A DNA stretch of 37,356 nt from Gemmatimonadota bacterium (GTDB lineage Bacteria; Gemmatimonadota; Gemmatimonadetes; Gemmatimonadales; GWC2-71-9). Positions 8,637 to 36,600 of the stretch are shown one piece after another. Made by a program: the position numbers and the translations under genes. How positions within the stretch are numbered: position 1 is the first letter of the stretch; every line of letters begins with the position of its first letter. The stretch lies in NCBI GenBank assembly GCA_003223395.1, contig QHUZ01000043.1:1-37356 (forward strand), written 5' to 3'. The notes beneath the pieces are model-generated. The model did no database searches. It saw only the letters and a program-made list of their open reading frames with translations, and was not told the DNA's origin.

Positions 8637-8969
8637 ATGCGCCTGCTGGCCTCATTGACGCTCGTGACGGCGTTGACGTTCGCCGCCGGAAGACTCGCTG
8701 CTCAAGACCGGAACGTTCCGGACAGTCTCGTTGCCAAAGCAAAGATCAGCGAAGACTCCGCCCGTGCCATCGCGCTGAAGCGCGTCCCCGGCGATGTCGA
8801 GGGCATTACGCTCGCGAAGATGAAAACCCGCCTCGTGTACACGTTCAAGGTTCAACGGAAAGGCCGGCCGGGTTTGACCGACGTCCAGGTGAATGCCGCG
8901 ACTGGGCACGTCATGGCCGTGCGGCGCGAGAGCACTAAATCGCGCTCAACAACTCGGCATTCGTCTTAG
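8637..8969 (+). CDS. Small exported PepSY-like protein
   Basis: 110 residues with a signal peptide (MRLLASLTLVTALTFAAGRLAAQ) followed by one PepSY-like module: a helix ISEDSARAIALKRVPGDVEG, two strands around TRLVYTFKVQ, and a final DVQVNAATGHVMAVRRE. An AGGAG at 8624-8628 lies 8 bases before the ATG and fixes the start. PepSY modules are often inhibitory or sensory and sit in the periplasm or cell wall. It lies 59 bases after the RND permease in the same orientation, so it may be part of the same transcript. Its last 35 bases overlap the 3' end of rho on the other strand. Confidence 0.75.
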   Translation: MRLLASLTLVTALTFAAGRLAAQDRNVPDSLVAKAKISEDSARAIALKRVPGDVEGITLAKMKTRLVYTFKVQRKGRPGLTDVQVNAATGHVMAVRRESTKSRSTTRHSS

Positions 8970-28684: not shown

Positions 28685-29008
28685 ATGCTGAAACGCATCT
28701 CGCTCATGCTGCTGCTCGCCATTCAGGCCCTTGGCGGTGGCGCGATCACGTTGGCGCACGCGCGCGACGCGGTCGTGGCGCCGCCCGGGTTTGAGGCGCG
28801 GCATGACGCGCGGTGCGCAATTCTTCACGACGAGCTGCGCTGCGCGCTCTGCCATTACGCGAGCGCCCGCGTCGTCCGGCAACAGGCCTTTACCCTCAAC
28901 ACGCCCCAGGTCGCCGTCCGCGTTGCGCCCGTGCAGCCGGTGGTCGTCTTCGCGGCCGTCGTTCCACTCACCGCCCCCGCGCGAGCGCCGCCTCCGTTCC
29001 TCTCCTGA
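28685..29008 (+). CDS. Exported Cys/His leader protein with C-terminal RAPP motif (copy A)
   Basis: 107 residues. AAGGAG at 28677-28682 selects the ATG at 28685 over one at 28673. A signal peptide (about 1-28) is followed by a metal-binding-type cluster His40, Cys44, His48, Cys53, Cys56, His57 and a hydrophobic stretch. It ends R100-A-P-P-P-F-L-S-stop. RAPP is known as a ribosome-arrest motif in exported arrest peptides, and DUF2946-type leader ORFs with CxxC regulate copper-uptake genes. The final codons pair with the Shine-Dalgarno of the next gene. A paralogue with the same design lies at 36202-36540 on the other strand. A regulatory leader role is inferred; it could also have a periplasmic metal-binding role. 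Confidence 0.75.
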   Translation: MLKRISLMLLLAIQALGGGAITLAHARDAVVAPPGFEARHDARCAILHDELRCALCHYASARVVRQQAFTLNTPQVAVRVAPVQPVVVFAAVVPLTAPARAPPPFLS

Positions 29009-29065
29009 ATCACCAGTACGCGCTCCGCACGTTGCGGAGCCCACGTTTCGCACATACAGGAGAGG
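28999..29065 (+). promoter_or_regulatory. Shine-Dalgarno-sequestering stem between leader A and the porin-like gene
   Basis: CCTCTCCTG (28999-29007, last codons plus stop of leader A) is perfectly complementary to CAGGAGAGG (29057-29065), which holds the Shine-Dalgarno of the gene starting at 29075. The loop contains a second perfect hairpin, GCTCCGCA (29022-29029) with TGCGGAGC (29033-29040). RAPP codons lie at 28982-28993, so a ribosome stalled there would cover the first arm and expose the Shine-Dalgarno. No U-tract follows, so it is not an intrinsic terminator. Confidence 0.65.
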
Positions 29066-29074
29066 TCATCCAAC

Positions 29075-30325
29075 ATGATACGCACGGTGTGCGCGGTGCT
29101 GCTTGCGGCGACGTGTTTCACGGCGCCCGGAGTCAGCCAGCAACCGACGCAACGACAGATGGATTCTTTAGCGGCGCAGGTCCGACAGCTGCGCGCCAGG
29201 CTGGACAGTGTTCTCGCCGCACTCGGACGTCGCCCTGCCCCGCCACCTCCCGCAGCGCCGGTCGGTGACGAGCTTGCCGCATTGCGGGCCGCTGCGAGCC
29301 AGGCCGCGGGCGGTGGCCTCAGCGACACCACGCGGGCCGCCGACACGCTGACGCAAGCCATGGGTCGGGAGCGGAACCAGGCCCAGCTGAATCCGGAGAT
29401 CGGCGCCACGGGAGACGTGCGCGCCTACGCGACGGGGCGCGGGGTGCAGCGCGAGAATTTCGATCCGCGAGAGTTCGAAGTCGGCTTCCAGTCGGCCCTC
29501 GATCCCTACTCGCATACGAAAATCTTCATCAGCCTCGAAGGCGGACACGTTAGTGTGGAGGAAGGGTACGCCTATTGGACCGGCCTGCCGGGACATATTC
29601 GACTCGACCTCGGTAAATACCGTCAGCAATTCGGCGAGCTCAATCGCTGGCATCTGCACGCGGTGCCGGAGACCGAGTACCCGCTCGCGATTACCACCTT
29701 CCTGGGGGAGGATGGGCTCTCGGGAACGGGGATTTCGCTGTATCGCGCCTTTGGCGGATTGGGGACACACGAGTTCACGGCACAGGTCACACGAAGCGCC
29801 AGTGACTCGGAGTTGTTCGGAAACAGCGGCCGGCCGACCTACCTGCTGCATCTCCTCAACTTCTGGCAACTCAACCATTCGACGTACATGCAGATCGGCG
29901 GCACGGCGCTGTACGGCACCGACCCCGATTCGGCGCTGCGCACGAAGGTCGGCGGGCTCGAGTTCCGCCTCACGTGGCGGCCGCCGCTCCGGGCGATGTA
30001 TCACGAATGGACGCTGCGCGGCGAACTGCTCGCGTTGCAGAAGCAGGTCGCCGGTACCGGGCCGACGCGCCTGGGAGGCTATGTCAGCTCCACCTACAAG
30101 CTGAACCAGCGTTTCATCCTCGGCGCCCGCTACGACTACGTCGAGTCGCCGGATTTCGGCGTGATCACGAGACAACTGATCCCCTCGCTCACGCTCTGGC
30201 AGAGCGAGTGGGTGTTCCTCCGCGCTCAATACCAGTGGCAGCAGATCGCGAATGCGCCCGCGAATCACCAGATCGCCTTCCAGGCGGTCTGGGCCATCGG
30301 ACCCCATAAACACGAGACCTACTGA
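29075..30325 (+). CDS. Porin-like outer-membrane beta-barrel protein
   Basis: 416 residues starting at ATG behind AGGAGAGG. A signal peptide (about 1-21) is followed by a short coiled coil (QRQMDSLAAQVRQLRARLDSVLAAL, about 27-51), a Pro/Ala linker, then a region of alternating amphipathic strands rich in Tyr, Trp and Gly typical of outer-membrane barrels, ending in HKHETY. No named family is recognised with certainty. It lies between the RAPP leader and ZnuA/ZnuB-type genes with only one base before the next ATG, so it probably passes metal or a metal complex across the outer membrane. Its Shine-Dalgarno lies in the leader stem. Confidence 0.72.
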   Translation: MIRTVCAVLLAATCFTAPGVSQQPTQRQMDSLAAQVRQLRARLDSVLAALGRRPAPPPPAAPVGDELAALRAAASQAAGGGLSDTTRAADTLTQAMGRERNQAQLNPEIGATGDVRAYATGRGVQRENFDPREFEVGFQSALDPYSHTKIFISLEGGHVSVEEGYAYWTGLPGHIRLDLGKYRQQFGELNRWHLHAVPETEYPLAITTFLGEDGLSGTGISLYRAFGGLGTHEFTAQVTRSASDSELFGNSGRPTYLLHLLNFWQLNHSTYMQIGGTALYGTDPDSALRTKVGGLEFRLTWRPPLRAMYHEWTLRGELLALQKQVAGTGPTRLGGYVSSTYKLNQRFILGARYDYVESPDFGVITRQLIPSLTLWQSEWVFLRAQYQWQQIANAPANHQIAFQAVWAIGPHKHETY

Positions 30326-30326
30326 C

Positions 30327-31373
30327 ATGCTAGCGATCATTGCTCTGTTACTTGGCGCCGTCAGCCCGTCGCCTTCACGACCAAACGCACCGGCGGCGCC
30401 GGTCAAGGTGGTCACCTCGCTCACGACGTACGCCGCGATCGCAGTGGAGATCGTGGGCGATCGGGGGAAAGTCAGCTCGATCGCCGTGGGTGACGAGAAT
30501 CCGCACTACGTGCAGCCCAAGCCGAGCTTCGTGCCGACCCTGGCACAGGCCGACTTGTTCGTGACGACGGGACTGGACCTCGAGCTCTGGGTGCCGGCGC
30601 TGCTCGACAAGGCGAACAATGCGAAGATCACCGAGGGTGGGCCCGGATATGTCGCGGCCTACCAGGGCCTGCCGCTGCTCGACGTTCCCGTCAACCTGTC
30701 GCGCTCCCAGGGCGACATCCACGTCTACGGCAACCCGCACATCTGGACCGACCCGCTGAATGCCGTGCTCATCGCGCGCAACATTCTGCGAGGGTTGAAG
30801 CGCGTCGCGCCCGAGAATGCGGACTATTTCACGGCTCGCGAAAAAGATTTCGAGGACCGGATGTATCGCGCATTGTTCGGCGACGAACTGGTGAAGTTGA
30901 TCGGCGGTGAGACGCTTGCCGATCTCGATCGTCAGGGCAAGCTGTTCAACTTCCTCGGGCAACAGCAGTATCAGGGCGCTCCGCTCATCGGCCGGTTGGG
31001 TGGCTGGCTGAAGCAGGGGATGCCGTTCCGCGGCAAGCTGGTGGCGTGCTACCACAAGGAGTGGGACTACTTCTCGCGCGAGTTCCAGGTCACCTGCTTC
31101 GATTATATCGAGCCGAAACCCGGTATTCCGCCGACGCCGCGCCATGTGCAGGAGATCATCACCGCGATGCGGGACCAGCACATTCAGGTGCTCTTGTCGA
31201 CGAATTACTACGATCGCAGTCAGGTGATGGACGTGGCCCAGCGGACGGGTGCCAAAGCGGTCATCGTGCCGTCCAACACCGGAGGTCAGGCCGGCGTGAA
31301 TACCTATTTCGATCTCATGAATCTCTGGGTCACGGAGCTCACCCAGGCCTTCGGCGCGAAGGAGGTTCCGTGA
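30327..31373 (+). CDS. ZnuA-type metal ABC transporter binding protein
   Basis: 348 residues with ATG one base after the previous stop. A short signal peptide precedes a cluster A-I solute-binding fold. Metal-ligand positions are His60 in ENPHYVQPKP, His138 in GNPHIWTDP, the His in ACYHKEWDYFSREF, and an acidic site near STNYYDRS. The His-rich loop common in zinc-specific ZnuA is absent, so manganese, iron or zinc are all possible. It should capture the ion in the periplasm and deliver it to the permease encoded next, which overlaps it by 4 bases. Confidence 0.88.
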   Translation: MLAIIALLLGAVSPSPSRPNAPAAPVKVVTSLTTYAAIAVEIVGDRGKVSSIAVGDENPHYVQPKPSFVPTLAQADLFVTTGLDLELWVPALLDKANNAKITEGGPGYVAAYQGLPLLDVPVNLSRSQGDIHVYGNPHIWTDPLNAVLIARNILRGLKRVAPENADYFTAREKDFEDRMYRALFGDELVKLIGGETLADLDRQGKLFNFLGQQQYQGAPLIGRLGGWLKQGMPFRGKLVACYHKEWDYFSREFQVTCFDYIEPKPGIPPTPRHVQEIITAMRDQHIQVLLSTNYYDRSQVMDVAQRTGAKAVIVPSNTGGQAGVNTYFDLMNLWVTELTQAFGAKEVP

Positions 31374-32233
31374 GCGGCTTGGAGTTGATGCTGCCGCCAT
31401 TCGTCGCCTGCATGATTCTCGTGGCCATGTTGTCGTACCTCGGCCTGCACGTCATCGCGCGCGAGGTCATCTTCGTAGACCTGTCGCTCGCGCAGATGGC
31501 GGCGCTGGGGAGTTTGTCCGCGCTGCTCTTCCACGTATCCCCCGACTCCGCGAAGACGTACGTGTTCGCCTTGCTGATGACGGCGGTTGGCGCGTTTCTG
31601 TTCGCGCTCACGCGGTCATCGGTGCACGGCGGCAGCGGGGCGGGCCGGGTGCCGCAGGAGGCCTTCATCGGCATCGTGTACGTGGTCGCGTCCGCTGCCG
31701 CGGTCCTGGTGGCGAACAAAGTCCCGGGCGGAGGCGAAGCGGTAGAGAAAACACTGGTGGGCAGTCTGCTGTGGGTCACGTGGCCGACGATCCGAAAGCT
31801 CGCGATCGCGTACGCTGCGTTGGGCGTGTTCCATTACGTCCTGCGGCGCCGCTTCCTCACAATCTCGTTCCATCCGCAGGAGGCCGAGGCGCAGGGTTGG
31901 AAGATTCGCTGGTGGGACTTCGTCTTTTACCTGTCGTTCGGCGTCGTGATTACGCTCGCGGTGCCGATTGCCGGCGTGCTGATGGTGTTCAGCTTCCTTG
32001 TTGTGCCGGCGGTGATCGCGAATCTCTTCACCGCGGACAAGCGCCGGCTGACGATTATCGCGTGGAGCTCAGGGGCCCTGGCATCGGTCCTCGGCCTGTG
32101 GCTGTCCTACACCAAGGATTTGCCCACCGGCCCGCTGGTCGTCTGCATGTACGGCCTACTGCTCGTTGCGGCGGCAGTGCTCCGCAGGCTCGGTATAGGC
32201 AACAAACCGCTACCGAATCCGCAGAACCACTAG
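31370..32233 (+). CDS. ZnuB-type metal ABC transporter permease
   Basis: 287 residues from GTG in a GTGA overlap. About eight hydrophobic helices are visible, with ABC-3 family features: LSYLGLHVIAREVIFVDLSLAQMAALG near the N-terminus and the EAF/SLLWVTWPT region in the middle, then GVLMVFSFLVVPAVIANLF. It forms the membrane channel for the metal held by the ZnuA-type protein. No ATPase gene is adjacent on either side, which is unusual; the motor must be encoded elsewhere. Its last 24 bases overlap the 3' end of the convergent metalloprotease gene. Confidence 0.88.
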   Translation: MSGLELMLPPFVACMILVAMLSYLGLHVIAREVIFVDLSLAQMAALGSLSALLFHVSPDSAKTYVFALLMTAVGAFLFALTRSSVHGGSGAGRVPQEAFIGIVYVVASAAAVLVANKVPGGGEAVEKTLVGSLLWVTWPTIRKLAIAYAALGVFHYVLRRRFLTISFHPQEAEAQGWKIRWWDFVFYLSFGVVITLAVPIAGVLMVFSFLVVPAVIANLFTADKRRLTIIAWSSGALASVLGLWLSYTKDLPTGPLVVCMYGLLLVAAAVLRRLGIGNKPLPNPQNH

Positions 32234-33895
32234 GCGCGGAATGACCGCCGGCGAAACGGCGGTCGTTCCATTCCCGCTGAAATGGAGCGTGAACGCCGCT
32301 CCCCCCGCCGGCTGCACCGCCCGCAGGTACGCGCCTGAGCCCGACTTGAGCGTACCCGTGAGGTTCACAGCGCCTCCCGCCGAGAATGTCGGGACGAGCG
32401 GGTACACCCGCGGGAAGACCTGGGCGTTCTGACTGTGGAGCGAGCTGAACGTGCGGCGGAAGTGCCAGCTCGTGTACTGGAGCTCGCTCGGCGCCGCGAA
32501 TCCGGGCAGATCGGAGACCCAGTTCGCGAGCGCCCAGTTGCTGACCGTCTGGCCGAAGGGCTGGCCGGTTTGCGCCGCGACGTTCGAGGCTCCCGTCAAT
32601 GACGTTTGGACGAGCTTGCCCGGCAACGCCGCGCCGAATTGATCCACGATGTAGCGGGTGAAGAGCCAGCTCCCGCCGACCATCGCCAACGACCCGTTAT
32701 CGACGGGGATCAACAACGGTGTATCCGCAGTTGCCAGCAGATATTGATAGGCATCGTACGCGTCCCCGAACGCGTAATTGCTGAACATCGCCGTGTCTGC
32801 CTCGGCGAGGTAACTCCGACCCGCGAGCTCCTCGGCGTATTTGGAGAGACCCTCGTCCAGCCATCCCTCTTCTGGGTTATTGGCACCCCTCAGCACGTGC
32901 TCGACGAAATTGATCATGTGCTGGAATTCGTGAGTGAAGGTGACCGGCGTGATGAAGTTGACCTCTGAATTCTTGTGCGCACAACTCAGCGTGCCTGCCG
33001 AATCGGCCACGATCGAGTAGAAGATCTCGCCGTTGTTGTAGGTCGTGGAGAATCCGGGAGCGAGGTCGCCGGGGAAGAAAAAGCCCGCGATGTAGCCGGC
33101 TCCAGGAGTGTTGCACTGCGCCGCCGTGACAAGCTTGTTCACCTGGTTGGTCATCAGGACGATGACGACGGAGTTGGAATCGATGTCCGACACGTGACCG
33201 AACGTGGTCGTGTCGAGCGGGTAGAGCCGCGAATCGAACACGTTCTTGAGCGAATCAAGATCGGTGGCGCTGAGCCCAGGAGAAGGAGCCAGCGAATCTA
33301 TGTAGATGGCGATGTGCACACCTACCGCCCGCGCAACGGCACGAACATTGACCGTCGTCAAACAGTTCGAGTCTGCACAGACTTTGAACGCTCGTTTGCT
33401 GCCAACCACCGGTGGGCCGGCGGCCGGTGACGGCTGTGGCACTCCGGCGCTGACCGCGGGCGCCGATCGATCGGCTGGCGGATAGCGACGATTGGTGGCG
33501 AGGTCCCGCAGGAAGTGATCGAAGGCCGCGGCTGTCGCACCCCGGCTGCGCGGACCGGACGGCGTGAAAGCGCGGGACATCGCGATCGACGGCACGGGTT
33601 CCGCCGACTGCAGCATGAAGGGCGCCGATGCCCCCGGCGTGCCGACGGTCGACCACGGCAGTACCAAGTACTCGGCGGTGTCGGGTGCGGTATTCGCCGC
33701 GAACGTCACGCAACCGGCATCGCTTGCGGGGTCGATGGACGTGTAGGCACCAACGGCAAGGGCCAGCGGCGTGCCGTGCGCCCCGCAGGACGGCAGGCCA
33801 GGCCCCGCCGAATCGCTACTGCATGCGACCGTCAGGACCAGGCCTCCCACACTTGCAAGAATTCCCAGCAATGAAACCCGAGTGCTCACAGCCAC
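32210..33895 (-). CDS. M30-like zinc metalloprotease lipoprotein
   Basis: 561 residues from GTG, starting one base after the TonB-receptor stop. A lipoprotein signal ends at VLTVACSS. The catalytic domain (about 175-440) carries the zinc motif TFTHEFQHMINF (HExxH) and, about 25 residues on, a downstream Glu in GWLDEGLSKYAEELAG. The arrangement resembles M30 hyicolysin-type proteases. The C-terminal 100 residues form a beta-rich domain. It would be anchored in the outer or inner membrane facing the periplasm or outside. Co-transcription with the TonB receptor suggests it may free metal or peptide for uptake, which is inference. Confidence 0.83.
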   Translation of the reverse strand: MAVSTRVSLLGILASVGGLVLTVACSSDSAGPGLPSCGAHGTPLALAVGAYTSIDPASDAGCVTFAANTAPDTAEYLVLPWSTVGTPGASAPFMLQSAEPVPSIAMSRAFTPSGPRSRGATAAAFDHFLRDLATNRRYPPADRSAPAVSAGVPQPSPAAGPPVVGSKRAFKVCADSNCLTTVNVRAVARAVGVHIAIYIDSLAPSPGLSATDLDSLKNVFDSRLYPLDTTTFGHVSDIDSNSVVIVLMTNQVNKLVTAAQCNTPGAGYIAGFFFPGDLAPGFSTTYNNGEIFYSIVADSAGTLSCAHKNSEVNFITPVTFTHEFQHMINFVEHVLRGANNPEEGWLDEGLSKYAEELAGRSYLAEADTAMFSNYAFGDAYDAYQYLLATADTPLLIPVDNGSLAMVGGSWLFTRYIVDQFGAALPGKLVQTSLTGASNVAAQTGQPFGQTVSNWALANWVSDLPGFAAPSELQYTSWHFRRTFSSLHSQNAQVFPRVYPLVPTFSAGGAVNLTGTLKSGSGAYLRAVQPAGGAAFTLHFSGNGTTAVSPAVIPRLVVLRIR

Positions 33896-33896
33896 T

Positions 33897-36101
33897 TTAG
33901 AACTCCGTCGTTATCCGCGCGATGAGTGAACGGCCCATGCCTGGATCCACTGCGTTGGTCTTGATACGGCTCAAGTAGTCCGCATAACGCCTGTCGAACG
34001 CGTTGCGCAACGACAGATCTACCATGATCGTGCGAGATCCGGCGACGAACCCCGCACCAGCACCGACGTTCATGAGCGCGTAGGGACGAGATTGATACCC
34101 CGCTCCTCCAAAAGCGTCCGCAAAAAACTGCCGCTCCGCGGGGTCGAGGCGTGTCTGGCGAGCATTGGTCTCACCGCCGATCGAGAAGTAGGCCCGCTGG
34201 CCGTGCTCAAGCCGCGCCGTCCACGTTGCGCGGAACGGCGGCATGTTGGGGAGCGGCTGATCGGTTGACGTGTTCTGGCCGCGCACATAATCCGCGGTGC
34301 CCTGCAGATGCAGATACGCTGTCGGGTGCCACTGGAACGCGCTCTCGAAGCCCGTGAGGCGAGCGTTTCCTTGGGTGACGTCGTAGATCTGAAAGCCCGA
34401 CGCGCTGTCGACGGTCCCAGTGGGGAACGTATAGATGTAGTCCTGAATCAGGTTGACGAACGCCCCCACCTCGAAGGCCAGCCGCGCCGTCTGTGCCCGC
34501 ACGGCAACATCGGTGTTGATGGACTTCTCCGTCTTGAGATTCGGGTTGCCCCGTTCGAAAGCGACAGTGCCCTCGTGCACGCCGTTCGAGTACAAGTCGA
34601 ACGAGGACGGAGCGCGGAACCCCCGACCCACGTTGATGACCAGCGCCGCCGGCTCACTGAGGTGGAACAACAGTCCCGCGTTGGCGATCGCCGAGCTCCA
34701 GGTGTGCGTCCGCGCGCTGTTTCCCAGGGCGGTATCGGCGTCCACATCGAGGCGGCGGTAATCGTAGCGCGCGCCGAACGATAGGTTCACGCGCCGTCCT
34801 TCGGACTGTTCGAATGCGTAGATACCCACCGTATTGAGCCGCGAGGGCGGGATCAACGTCTCTTCACCGAACTTGTTGAACGTCGTCCGCAACCCGGACA
34901 GACCGAGCAGGCCGGAGAACTGCCCGAGGGGCGCGTGGTGGTAGTGGACGTCCGCCAGATAGGTCTGCGAGAGCAGTCCCAGCCCCACGGTGCTCGTCGT
35001 GTCGTCTTCGAACTCCCGGCGCCGGCTGCGTTCGTAGCCGGTCGAGACCTCGAGACGAGCGGCGCCGAGCGGCAACGCGAGATCGGCCCGGGCGTGACTC
35101 GTGGACATCCGTTGCGTCGGGGTCGCGAGGGGATCTTCGTCCGTCATCGATATCCGCTCGTCGCGCTGCGAGAACGTTCCCGATAGACTCCCCCACGTTC
35201 CGCGCGCGCCGATGGTCCCGCTTCCACCGAGGGCTCGATCGCCGCTATTCCAGAGCACGTAGTCGGGCGTGTGTACATCGCCGCTGCTCCGTCCGCTGAG
35301 ACTGCCGCGGAATCCGACGCTCCCGCTCCCCCCCTCCAGATCGAGCGCGCCATCCTTGAGACCGTTGCCGCTGCCGTAAGCCGCCGACATCGTGCCGCGC
35401 ACGAACCCGGGCACCCCCACCGCGTCCGGAAGGTCCTTCTCGATGACGTTCACCACACCACCCAATGCGTCTGAGCCATACAGTACGCTCGCCGGACCGC
35501 GAATCACCTCGATCCGCTCGGCGTTCGCCGTCTCGATGTTAGGACTGTGCTCATCGCCCCACTGCTGGGTCTCGAGCCGCTGGCCGTCGTCCAGCACGAG
35601 CACCCGATTCGAGGTGAGACCGCGAATGACCGGCTTCCCGATCCCCACCCCGGTGCTCCAGCTGCGCACGCCGGCGACGCCCGAGAGCGTCTCACCGAGA
35701 CTCTGCGATTGCGACTGGCGGAGCTCATCGCCCGCCACGACGCTGGTAGGCTGGGGCGAGTTCAATGGGCTCGTAGCATTGGCACTGGCGGTAACCTGAA
35801 CGCCCGTCAATTCGACCACCGACTCCCGCATCGTCACGTCAGCGGTGACGTCGCCGCCCGTCGCGACGACGCTGCGGACCGCCGGGGCGTAGCCAATACG
35901 TTGGAAGGTGACGGTGAAGGTGCCCGCCGGGAGGCCGGCAATCGAATAGCGTCCTGAGGTATCGGTCGTCGTCGACCGATGCAGATCGGGAAGTGAGACC
36001 AGAACATCCGCAACCGGCGCACCGGCCGGGGTGGTGACGCGACCGGACAATATCCCGGTGCTGCCGGACAGTAGCGTGAGCAGCAATGTGAGGAAATGCA
36101 T
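33897..36101 (-). CDS. TonB-dependent outer-membrane receptor
   Basis: 734 residues; ATG at 36101 is chosen because AGGAGA lies 5 bases upstream and a signal peptide (MHFLTLLLTLLSG) starts there. An N-terminal carboxypeptidase-regulatory-like domain (about 18-95) precedes the plug: QSLGETLSGVAGVRSW, GKPVIRGLTSNRVLVLDDG and ERIEVIRGPASVLYGSDALGGVVNVI. A 22-strand-type barrel ends in Phe (RITTEF). The plug resembles ZnuD-like metal receptors in its PVIRG and DEHSPNIE segments, but the ligand is not proved. The upstream RAPP leader probably regulates it; the metalloprotease gene follows with a one-base gap. Confidence 0.92.
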   Translation of the reverse strand: MHFLTLLLTLLSGSTGILSGRVTTPAGAPVADVLVSLPDLHRSTTTDTSGRYSIAGLPAGTFTVTFQRIGYAPAVRSVVATGGDVTADVTMRESVVELTGVQVTASANATSPLNSPQPTSVVAGDELRQSQSQSLGETLSGVAGVRSWSTGVGIGKPVIRGLTSNRVLVLDDGQRLETQQWGDEHSPNIETANAERIEVIRGPASVLYGSDALGGVVNVIEKDLPDAVGVPGFVRGTMSAAYGSGNGLKDGALDLEGGSGSVGFRGSLSGRSSGDVHTPDYVLWNSGDRALGGSGTIGARGTWGSLSGTFSQRDERISMTDEDPLATPTQRMSTSHARADLALPLGAARLEVSTGYERSRRREFEDDTTSTVGLGLLSQTYLADVHYHHAPLGQFSGLLGLSGLRTTFNKFGEETLIPPSRLNTVGIYAFEQSEGRRVNLSFGARYDYRRLDVDADTALGNSARTHTWSSAIANAGLLFHLSEPAALVINVGRGFRAPSSFDLYSNGVHEGTVAFERGNPNLKTEKSINTDVAVRAQTARLAFEVGAFVNLIQDYIYTFPTGTVDSASGFQIYDVTQGNARLTGFESAFQWHPTAYLHLQGTADYVRGQNTSTDQPLPNMPPFRATWTARLEHGQRAYFSIGGETNARQTRLDPAERQFFADAFGGAGYQSRPYALMNVGAGAGFVAGSRTIMVDLSLRNAFDRRYADYLSRIKTNAVDPGMGRSLIARITTEF

Positions 36102-36102
36102 G

Positions 36103-36213
36103 ACGCTCTCCTGTTCAGGCGCGCGCACACCCCTCCAACGGAGTCGTGAACGCGAGCGAGTTGTTTGAATTGCGGTCGCCGCGGAAGCGCGGCGCCGTTA
36201 CTCAGGAGAGCGT
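36103..36213 (-). promoter_or_regulatory. Shine-Dalgarno-sequestering stem between leader B and the TonB receptor
   Basis: On the minus-strand transcript ACGCTCTCCTG (36213-36203, last codons plus stop of leader B) is perfectly complementary over 11 bp to CAGGAGAGCGT (36113-36103), which contains the receptor's Shine-Dalgarno. The 89-base loop holds a 7-bp GC hairpin (36177-36183 with 36188-36194). RAPP codons at 36225-36214 lie directly before the first arm, so an arrested ribosome would mask it. Confidence 0.68.
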
Positions 36214-36540
36214 GGGAGGAGCGCGCGAACCAGGAAGAGTGAGATCAGCGGCAGTCGACGAGTGCTGAACGACAATCGGCGCCCATCTGATGCCCCGCCC
36301 TTCGGGAATGCGAATGACAGTCGTTGCTGTACGGGCGAGTGGTGCCGAGAGAAGTCGGTGGAATGCGCAGTCGGCCGGATGGATGCGGGGGCACCCGGCC
36401 GTGGAGTGCGACTCGATGTGCGCCGGACCGGACTGCTCGCCGATGCTGGCATCGGCCCACGCCGCGGCCGCCGGCACGCTGAATTGCAACAGCGCGAGGA
36501 GGAGAAGCGGCGTCCGGACCCACAGCGAGCGTTTCCGCAT
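36202..36540 (-). CDS. Exported Cys/His leader protein with C-terminal RAPP motif (copy B)
   Basis: 112 residues, starting at the ATG that lies 7 bases after TAATAT on the minus strand. A signal peptide (about 1-28, MRKRSLWVRTPLLLLALLQF) is followed by the cluster His41, His45, Cys50, His54, Cys58, His61. It ends R106-A-P-P-T-L-S-stop. Alignment with copy A by eye gives H-x(3/4)-C-x3-H-x(3/4)-C-x2-[C/H] and the same RAPP...LS tail. It is 100 bases upstream of the TonB receptor on the same strand and its last codons pair with that gene's Shine-Dalgarno. A metal-responsive arrest-peptide role is inferred; the metal (copper, zinc or other) is unknown. Confidence 0.75.
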   Translation of the reverse strand: MRKRSLWVRTPLLLLALLQFSVPAAAAWADASIGEQSGPAHIESHSTAGCPRIHPADCAFHRLLSAPLARTATTVIRIPEGRGIRWAPIVVQHSSTAADLTLPGSRAPPTLS

Positions 36541-36570: not shown

Positions 36571-36600
36571 TTGACAGCCTCCGTCACACCCCCTTAGCAT
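36571..36600 (+). promoter_or_regulatory. Sigma-70-like promoter for the malic enzyme gene
   Basis: A perfect TTGACA (36571-36576), an 18-base spacer and TAGCAT (36595-36600) precede the gene, predicting a start near 36607 and a leader of about 20 bases. A second -10-like TATAAA lies at 36612-36617. It is back to back with the leader B promoter. Confidence 0.55.

Follow-up and report, generated by a model that had tools for sequence, protein, structure and literature searches.

Results

Two related exported ORFs precede metal-uptake genes

The window, a stretch of 37,356 nucleotides from the metagenome-assembled genome of a Gemmatimonadota soil bacterium (contig QHUZ01000043.1), contains two small ORFs, uORF A and uORF B, upstream of genes for metal uptake. 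A first-pass annotation had described them as related exported ORFs on opposite strands, each with a Cys/His cluster and a C-terminal RAPP, followed by a porin-like barrel in one case and a TonB receptor in the other. ORF anatomy and profile comparison with hhalign confirm the first of these statements, and the identity of the next genes is confirmed in the window. The features are as follows (SD, Shine-Dalgarno).

28685..29008, plus strand: uORF A, a putative CruR-like exported arrest peptide (107 aa; stop TGA 29006-29008)
28802..28855, plus strand: Cys/His cluster of A, H-x3-C-x3-H-x4-C-x2-C-H, a candidate metal site (residues 40-57; invariant columns in 24 sequences)
28982..28993, plus strand: RAPP codons of A, putative stall site (P-site Pro 28988-28990; RAPP/RGPP in 24/24)
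28999..29007, plus strand: anti-SD arm in the last codons of A, CCTCTCCTG (from pairing and folding)
29057..29065, plus strand: SD arm of the porin gene, CAGGAGAGG (pairs with the A tail)
29075..30325, plus strand: porin-like outer-membrane gene, POR (416 aa; synteny with znuA in many genera)
30327..31373, plus strand: znuA-like gene for the metal-binding protein of an ABC importer (PF01297, E 2.9e-42)
31371..32233, plus strand: znuB-like gene for an ABC-3 permease (PF00950, E 1.1e-29)
33897..36101, minus strand: TonB-dependent receptor gene, nearest ZnuD (NCBIfam ZnuD, E 1.5e-51, below cut-off)
36103..36113, minus strand: SD arm of the receptor gene, CAGGAGAGCGT (pairs with the B tail)
36203..36213, minus strand: anti-SD arm in the last codons of B, ACGCTCTCCTG (from pairing and folding)
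36214..36225, minus strand: RAPP codons of B, putative stall site (P-site Pro 36219-36217; RAPP in 21/21)
36202..36540, minus strand: uORF B, a putative CruR-like exported arrest peptide (112 aa; stop TGA 36204-36202)

Translation of A starts at ATG 28685, with the SD sequence AAGGAG immediately 5', and that of B at ATG 36540 on the minus strand. Both follow a common plan: a hydrophobic N-terminus, recognized by eye and as a predicted helix and taken as the export signal, a Cys/His cluster, a variable middle, and a C-terminal RAPP. The cluster reads H-DAR-C-AIL-H-DELR-C-AL-C-H in A and H-STAG-C-PRI-H-PAD-C-AF-H in B; 43 residues separate the Cys pair of A from the ending RAPP-PFLS-stop, and 44 separate the cluster of B from RAPP-TLS-stop. 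Comparison of the profiles of 24 A and 21 B homologues identifies the two as paralogous (hhalign 98.2%, E 6e-14).

Among the downstream genes, the TonB receptor matches ZnuD in the PDB (4rdr) at E 4e-28 and scores 175.9 bits against the NCBIfam ZnuD model, whose cut-off is 950 but which is still its nearest family. No znuC-type ATPase gene lies beside znuA-znuB within the window. Searches of POR against Pfam, NCBIfam and the PDB gave no convincing match; from its synteny with znuA, POR may be an undescribed outer-membrane partner of metal import. A good sigma-70-like promoter, TTGACA-18-TAGCAT (window 36571-36600, plus strand), lies upstream of the malic enzyme gene and overlaps the 5' region of B, and a similar sequence is found in other genomes of the genus.

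The gene order in relatives is PCMT, endonuclease IV, A, POR, znuA, znuB, B, TBDT, PEP, and malic enzyme. A and B, their spacing, and RAPP/RGPP are kept upstream of the same genes in nine genera of the family, with A preceding porin-znuA-znuB and B preceding the ZnuD-like TonB receptor gene. In genera g16, g26, g31 and g40, B comes directly after znuB on the same strand, and in most cases the znuB stop and the B start may overlap by 4 nt, so that B is there an internal ORF of an apparent operon. The B-TBDT-PEP block is inverted in g1, the genus of the window, and in g20.

Conserved ligands, a fixed distance to RAPP, and the CruR/DUF2946 superfamily

Homologues of A were found in 29 of 151 relatives and homologues of B in 40 of 151; a profile search recovered B homologues in 83 of 395 phylum genomes, and none were found in the viral contigs searched for B relatives. 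H40, C44, H48, C53, C56, R100, P102 and P103 are invariant among the 24 A homologues of alignment A1, as are H41, C50, H54 and C58 among the 21 B homologues of alignment A2. The fifth ligand of B varies: A has CALC, whereas B has CxxC in most genera and CAFH in g1 and g20, and on the alignment CxxH in B is a derived state of these two genera. The change coincides with the B-TBDT-PEP inversion, both occurring in g1 and g20, and the two probably reflect one event of shared ancestry.

RAPP or RGPP is present in all 45 aligned A and B homologues, and the distance from Cys to RAPP is constant to about one residue among the homologues listed. The Leu-Ser-stop ending to which attention had been drawn holds for both ORFs in the window but varies among A homologues, in which the constant elements are RAPP/RGPP and the Cys/His spacing. 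RAPP/RGPP uORFs also occur upstream of POR-znuA in 11 of ~14 further family genera with readable upstream sequence, and several of these diverged uORFs keep H-x3-C-x3-H-x4-C while the second Cys of CxxC is gone; therefore, the common core is H-C-H-C, not CxxC. A different RAPP uORF (H-DETTCAVC...RAPPQLT) is found at L098 (G107) on the minus strand before a 435-aa gene, with its stop at oriented position 8767 of a 13 kb stretch and a few kb from a B-like uORF, suggesting that another family of the phylum may also have paired uORFs.

The kinship with DUF2946 that the annotation had raised was examined at two levels. The Pfam model PF11162 (DUF2946) matched neither A nor B; it gave weak matches in 7 of 21 B homologues (best E 0.012) and matches in 28 of 298 phylum genomes, of which 17 exceed the cut-off. 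All but two of the phylum DUF2946 loci carry a Cys pair, ~45 residues and RAPP. Against a DUF2946 profile of 16 phylum proteins passing Pfam's cut-off, however, hhalign returned E 7.6e-20 for B and 7.8e-17 for A, and the B profile matches proteins above the DUF2946 cut-off at E ~1e-18 to 1e-20. Thus, at the profile level A and B belong to the CruR/DUF2946 superfamily, though they fall below its curated threshold. CzcI was considered as a further relative and rejected (E 0.04).

The uORF tails pair with the next Shine-Dalgarno

The last codons of the uORFs, CTCTCCTG, are complementary to the SD of the next gene in the window, where the porin SD arm lies 9 nt upstream of the ATG. The computed pairing probability of SD core and tail is 1.00 in both folded window leaders and 0.9-1.0 in all B leaders folded; a stem masking the next SD, the feature known from CutF, is therefore present in both window leaders. 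Among 106 control gene pairs drawn from the same regions, 4.7% form a duplex as strong as that of A and 0% one as strong as that of B. Over genera, pairing with the SD is better for the real codons than for synonymous replacements (Fisher p 9e-4 for A and 8e-5 for B), also in a stricter test that varies the Pro codons as well (p 0.01 and 0.001, respectively). Blocking the tail in the window model does not free the SD core of B, which then pairs locally.

The evidence for covariation is mixed. Genus-level matched versus swapped tail/SD pairs differ modestly for B (p 0.012-0.018) and not significantly for A (p 0.08-0.13). In g26 the A tail, CTCCCGTTCC, differs and the SD, GGAACGGGAG, differs to match, which is suggestive of covariation. 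RNAalifold gave no consensus structure across all B leaders; on the A leaders of g1 it returned the tail/SD helix and an inner hairpin, with little covariation.

Most DUF2946-type uORFs of the diverged family genera and of the rest of the phylum have no tail/SD pairing; the pairing is therefore a feature that this lineage has added to a conserved nascent-chain module, and it does not define the family. The pairing claimed by the first-pass annotation is accordingly real in the window and beyond synonymous expectation, but was too general for the superfamily. A few exceptions with pairing occur outside the lineage, such as L105, L112 and L127. At L112 and L127, DUF2946-type uORFs of other families, the tail CTTCCC[AG]TCTCTCTG is complementary to GAGAGATGGAAA directly upstream of the following start codon, with a duplex of ~ -17 kcal/mol and the same RNA layout.

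RAPP and RGPP both arrest ribosomes, and toeprinting places Pro3 of RAPP in the P site of the CruR stall (PMC12992588). For a ribosome placed on A in this way, with codon 28988-28990 in the P site, the leading edge lies at ~29003, on CCTCTCCTG; on B the leading edge falls at ~36203, on ACGCTCTCCTG. A ribosome stalled at RAPP would thus have its leading edge on the CTCTCC codons and would block their pairing with the SD; in the stalled state porin-znuA-znuB (for A) and the ZnuD-like receptor gene (for B) would be translated.

The strongest alternative is that A and B work as CruR proper, in which the RAPP stall shields a rut site and release by metal allows Rho-dependent termination ahead of the next gene; the tail/SD complementarity would then be incidental, arising wherever C-rich, Pro-rich codons face a strong SD. 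Rho has been demonstrated for CruR (PMC9426467), most of the superfamily lacks the pairing, and a C>G excess of at least 15 points occurs in 37% (A) and 39% (B) of the 78-nt windows covering uORF plus intergenic region, versus 2.8% for nearby coding genes. Incidental complementarity is harder to reconcile with real codons outperforming synonymous ones across genera, and with an anti-SD arm lying just where a RAPP-stalled ribosome would cover it; in addition, the intergenic spans are 66 and 100 nt here, not 162. We regard this alternative as rather doubtful, although stalling could act via Rho, via the SD, or both.

Zinc is the best candidate for the sensed metal

An H-C-H-C core is a typical zinc ligand set, though no proof of zinc. 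All 48 ZnuA homologues keep the three His of the metal loop, and no acidic residue is conserved as a fourth ligand, an arrangement that resembles zinc rather than manganese binding proteins. The neighbours (PF01297/PF00950, the three-His site, and ZnuD as the nearest receptor) point to zinc, which is our best guess for the sensed metal from these sequence features. A search of the window's genome, which is 97.6% complete, for the FUR family (Zur/Fur) returned no match, and a strong match was found in only 1 of 10 members of its genus. Strong matches occur in 9 of 27 A-positive genomes, so the absence of FUR is only supportive; the same count weakens the idea that the uORFs replace Zur throughout the lineage.

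It is unlikely, in our judgement, that copper is sensed and that the znu-like genes import or co-import it. This alternative draws on the tested Cys-bearing family members, which sense copper (PMC9426467, PMC9973294), and on OprC copper receptors, which are distant matches of the TonB receptor. The ABC-3/ZnuA import genes, the invariant three-His site and the receptor nearest ZnuD argue against it, as does the second Cys of CxxC, which several POR-znuA uORFs do without and which His replaces in the B of g1 and g20, whereas Roy et al. describe CXXC as invariant in CruR. The suggestion that A and B may serve different metals (CxxC against CxxH) is not supported: most B genera have CxxC-H, CxxH is the derived state of g1 and g20, and the neighbours of both uORFs point to zinc.

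A proposed nascent-chain switch

We infer stalling, metal binding, zinc as the metal, and the direction of the response in A and B from the features above together with the known family members. A metal, most likely zinc, would bind the nascent chain at its H-C-H-C(-C/H) cluster, ~45 residues upstream of RAPP, and relieve stalling; the ribosome would then depart at the stop codon, the tail/SD helix would close, and uptake would be switched off. With the stalled ribosome gone, the C-rich stretch might also be open to Rho, as in CruR. The exported arrest-peptide switch proposed by the annotation gains support from its CruR/DUF2946 kind, the position of RAPP, the ligands, the metal-uptake neighbours, and the anti-SD arm under the expected leading edge. 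We consider it probable that A and B are cis-acting metal switches of the CruR type with SD unmasking like that of CutF and SecM, and that the metal is zinc. More tentatively, and with somewhat less than even confidence, we propose a zinc switch of two arrest peptides, ancestrally serial in one zinc-uptake operon, that combines stalling and SD unmasking. We are similarly guarded about the extension of this zinc-switch proposal in which separate peptides serve the inner- and outer-membrane importers, in a genus mostly lacking detectable Zur/Fur.

Two further alternatives would dispense with a metal-responsive arrest. A redox or export monitor of the SecM or Dsb type, read by the CxxC/H cluster, would agree with the export signals of A and B and with the RAPP uORFs upstream of sec, DsbA and thioredoxin genes (PMC12992588), but it is very improbable here: the His positions are no less invariant than the Cys, and a Cys can be replaced by His, as expected of metal ligands but not of a disulfide; in addition, the neighbours are metal-uptake genes. 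The export of A and B and their many metal ligands would also suit ordinary periplasmic metal chaperones, small proteins that act once fully made. This reading is hardly credible given the C-terminal RAPP at fixed spacing with an otherwise unconserved middle, a mostly disordered, low-confidence AlphaFold model of A (mean pLDDT 60), and the lack of action in trans of CruR.

Post-transcriptional metal sensing by a nascent chain is shown for copper only in the open-access journal literature searched, which contained no zinc arrest peptide and no zinc-uptake operon under such a uORF. The annotation had taken the two paralogous copies to be apparently undescribed; the kind is in fact described for copper (CruR, PMC9426467; CutF, PMC9973294), while this literature gave no example of a zinc setting, a paired layout or an operon-internal position. 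According to Roy et al., neither copper nor zinc has a known riboswitch. If the proposal is correct, a zinc version would extend sensing by nascent chains to a metal that Zur usually handles, and the pair, one member of which is operon-internal and overlaps znuB in the sister genera, would show how uptake across the inner and the outer membrane can be adjusted independently from one transcript. With its conserved geometry (ligands, ~45 residues, RAPP and anti-SD), the question is testable.

Comparison with known systems

The genes downstream of A and B belong to or lie near the ZnuABC and ZnuD families that are elsewhere under Zur; the difference is that no FUR-family gene was detected here and that control by the uORFs is proposed instead. 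With ApdA/ApdP (PMC10951233) and SecM-type peptides, A and B share the presumed RAP-Pro stall, assigned from the same motif, and the freeing of a downstream start, whereas those peptides lack a metal cluster, act as monitors of Sec/YidC, and are found upstream of secretion genes.

CutF of Rhodobacter capsulatus, an exported nascent sensor with an SD-masking stem-loop before the next gene (PMC9973294), resembles A and B in being an exported nascent metal sensor with a Pro-rich C-terminus and an SD-masking stem. It differs in having CxxxC and another Pro-rich end, where A and B have CxxC/CxxH, in a stem that is intergenic, where the anti-SD of A and B lies within the last ORF codons, and in a target that copper switches on. 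Its authors noted that such proteins are not all copper-specific and named nickel and cobalt as candidates (PMC9973294).

The closest system is CruR (DUF2946) of Bordetella pertussis (PMC9426467), for which arrest has been shown (PMC12992588); RAPP/RGPP uORFs are reported broadly upstream of TonB receptors (EMBO J 2025, PMC12992588). CruR is likewise a small exported uORF before a TonB receptor, with a Cys pair ~45 residues before a C-terminal RAPP and a C>G bubble as in both uORF plus intergenic regions here. Its gap between CxxC and RAPP is 45 residues, compared with 43 in A and 44 in B, and five added residues strongly reduced the copper effect (PMC9426467). A and B differ from it in their zinc-type neighbours and two copies in one region, in an H-C-H-C core whose second Cys is lost or His in some, in a tail complementary to the next SD, and in missing the Pfam cut-off. 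Roy et al. describe CruR genes in first position; therefore, the internal B of the sister genera is a further difference. CruR would be the precedent for the protein module of A and B and for the direction of their response, with metal turning uptake off.
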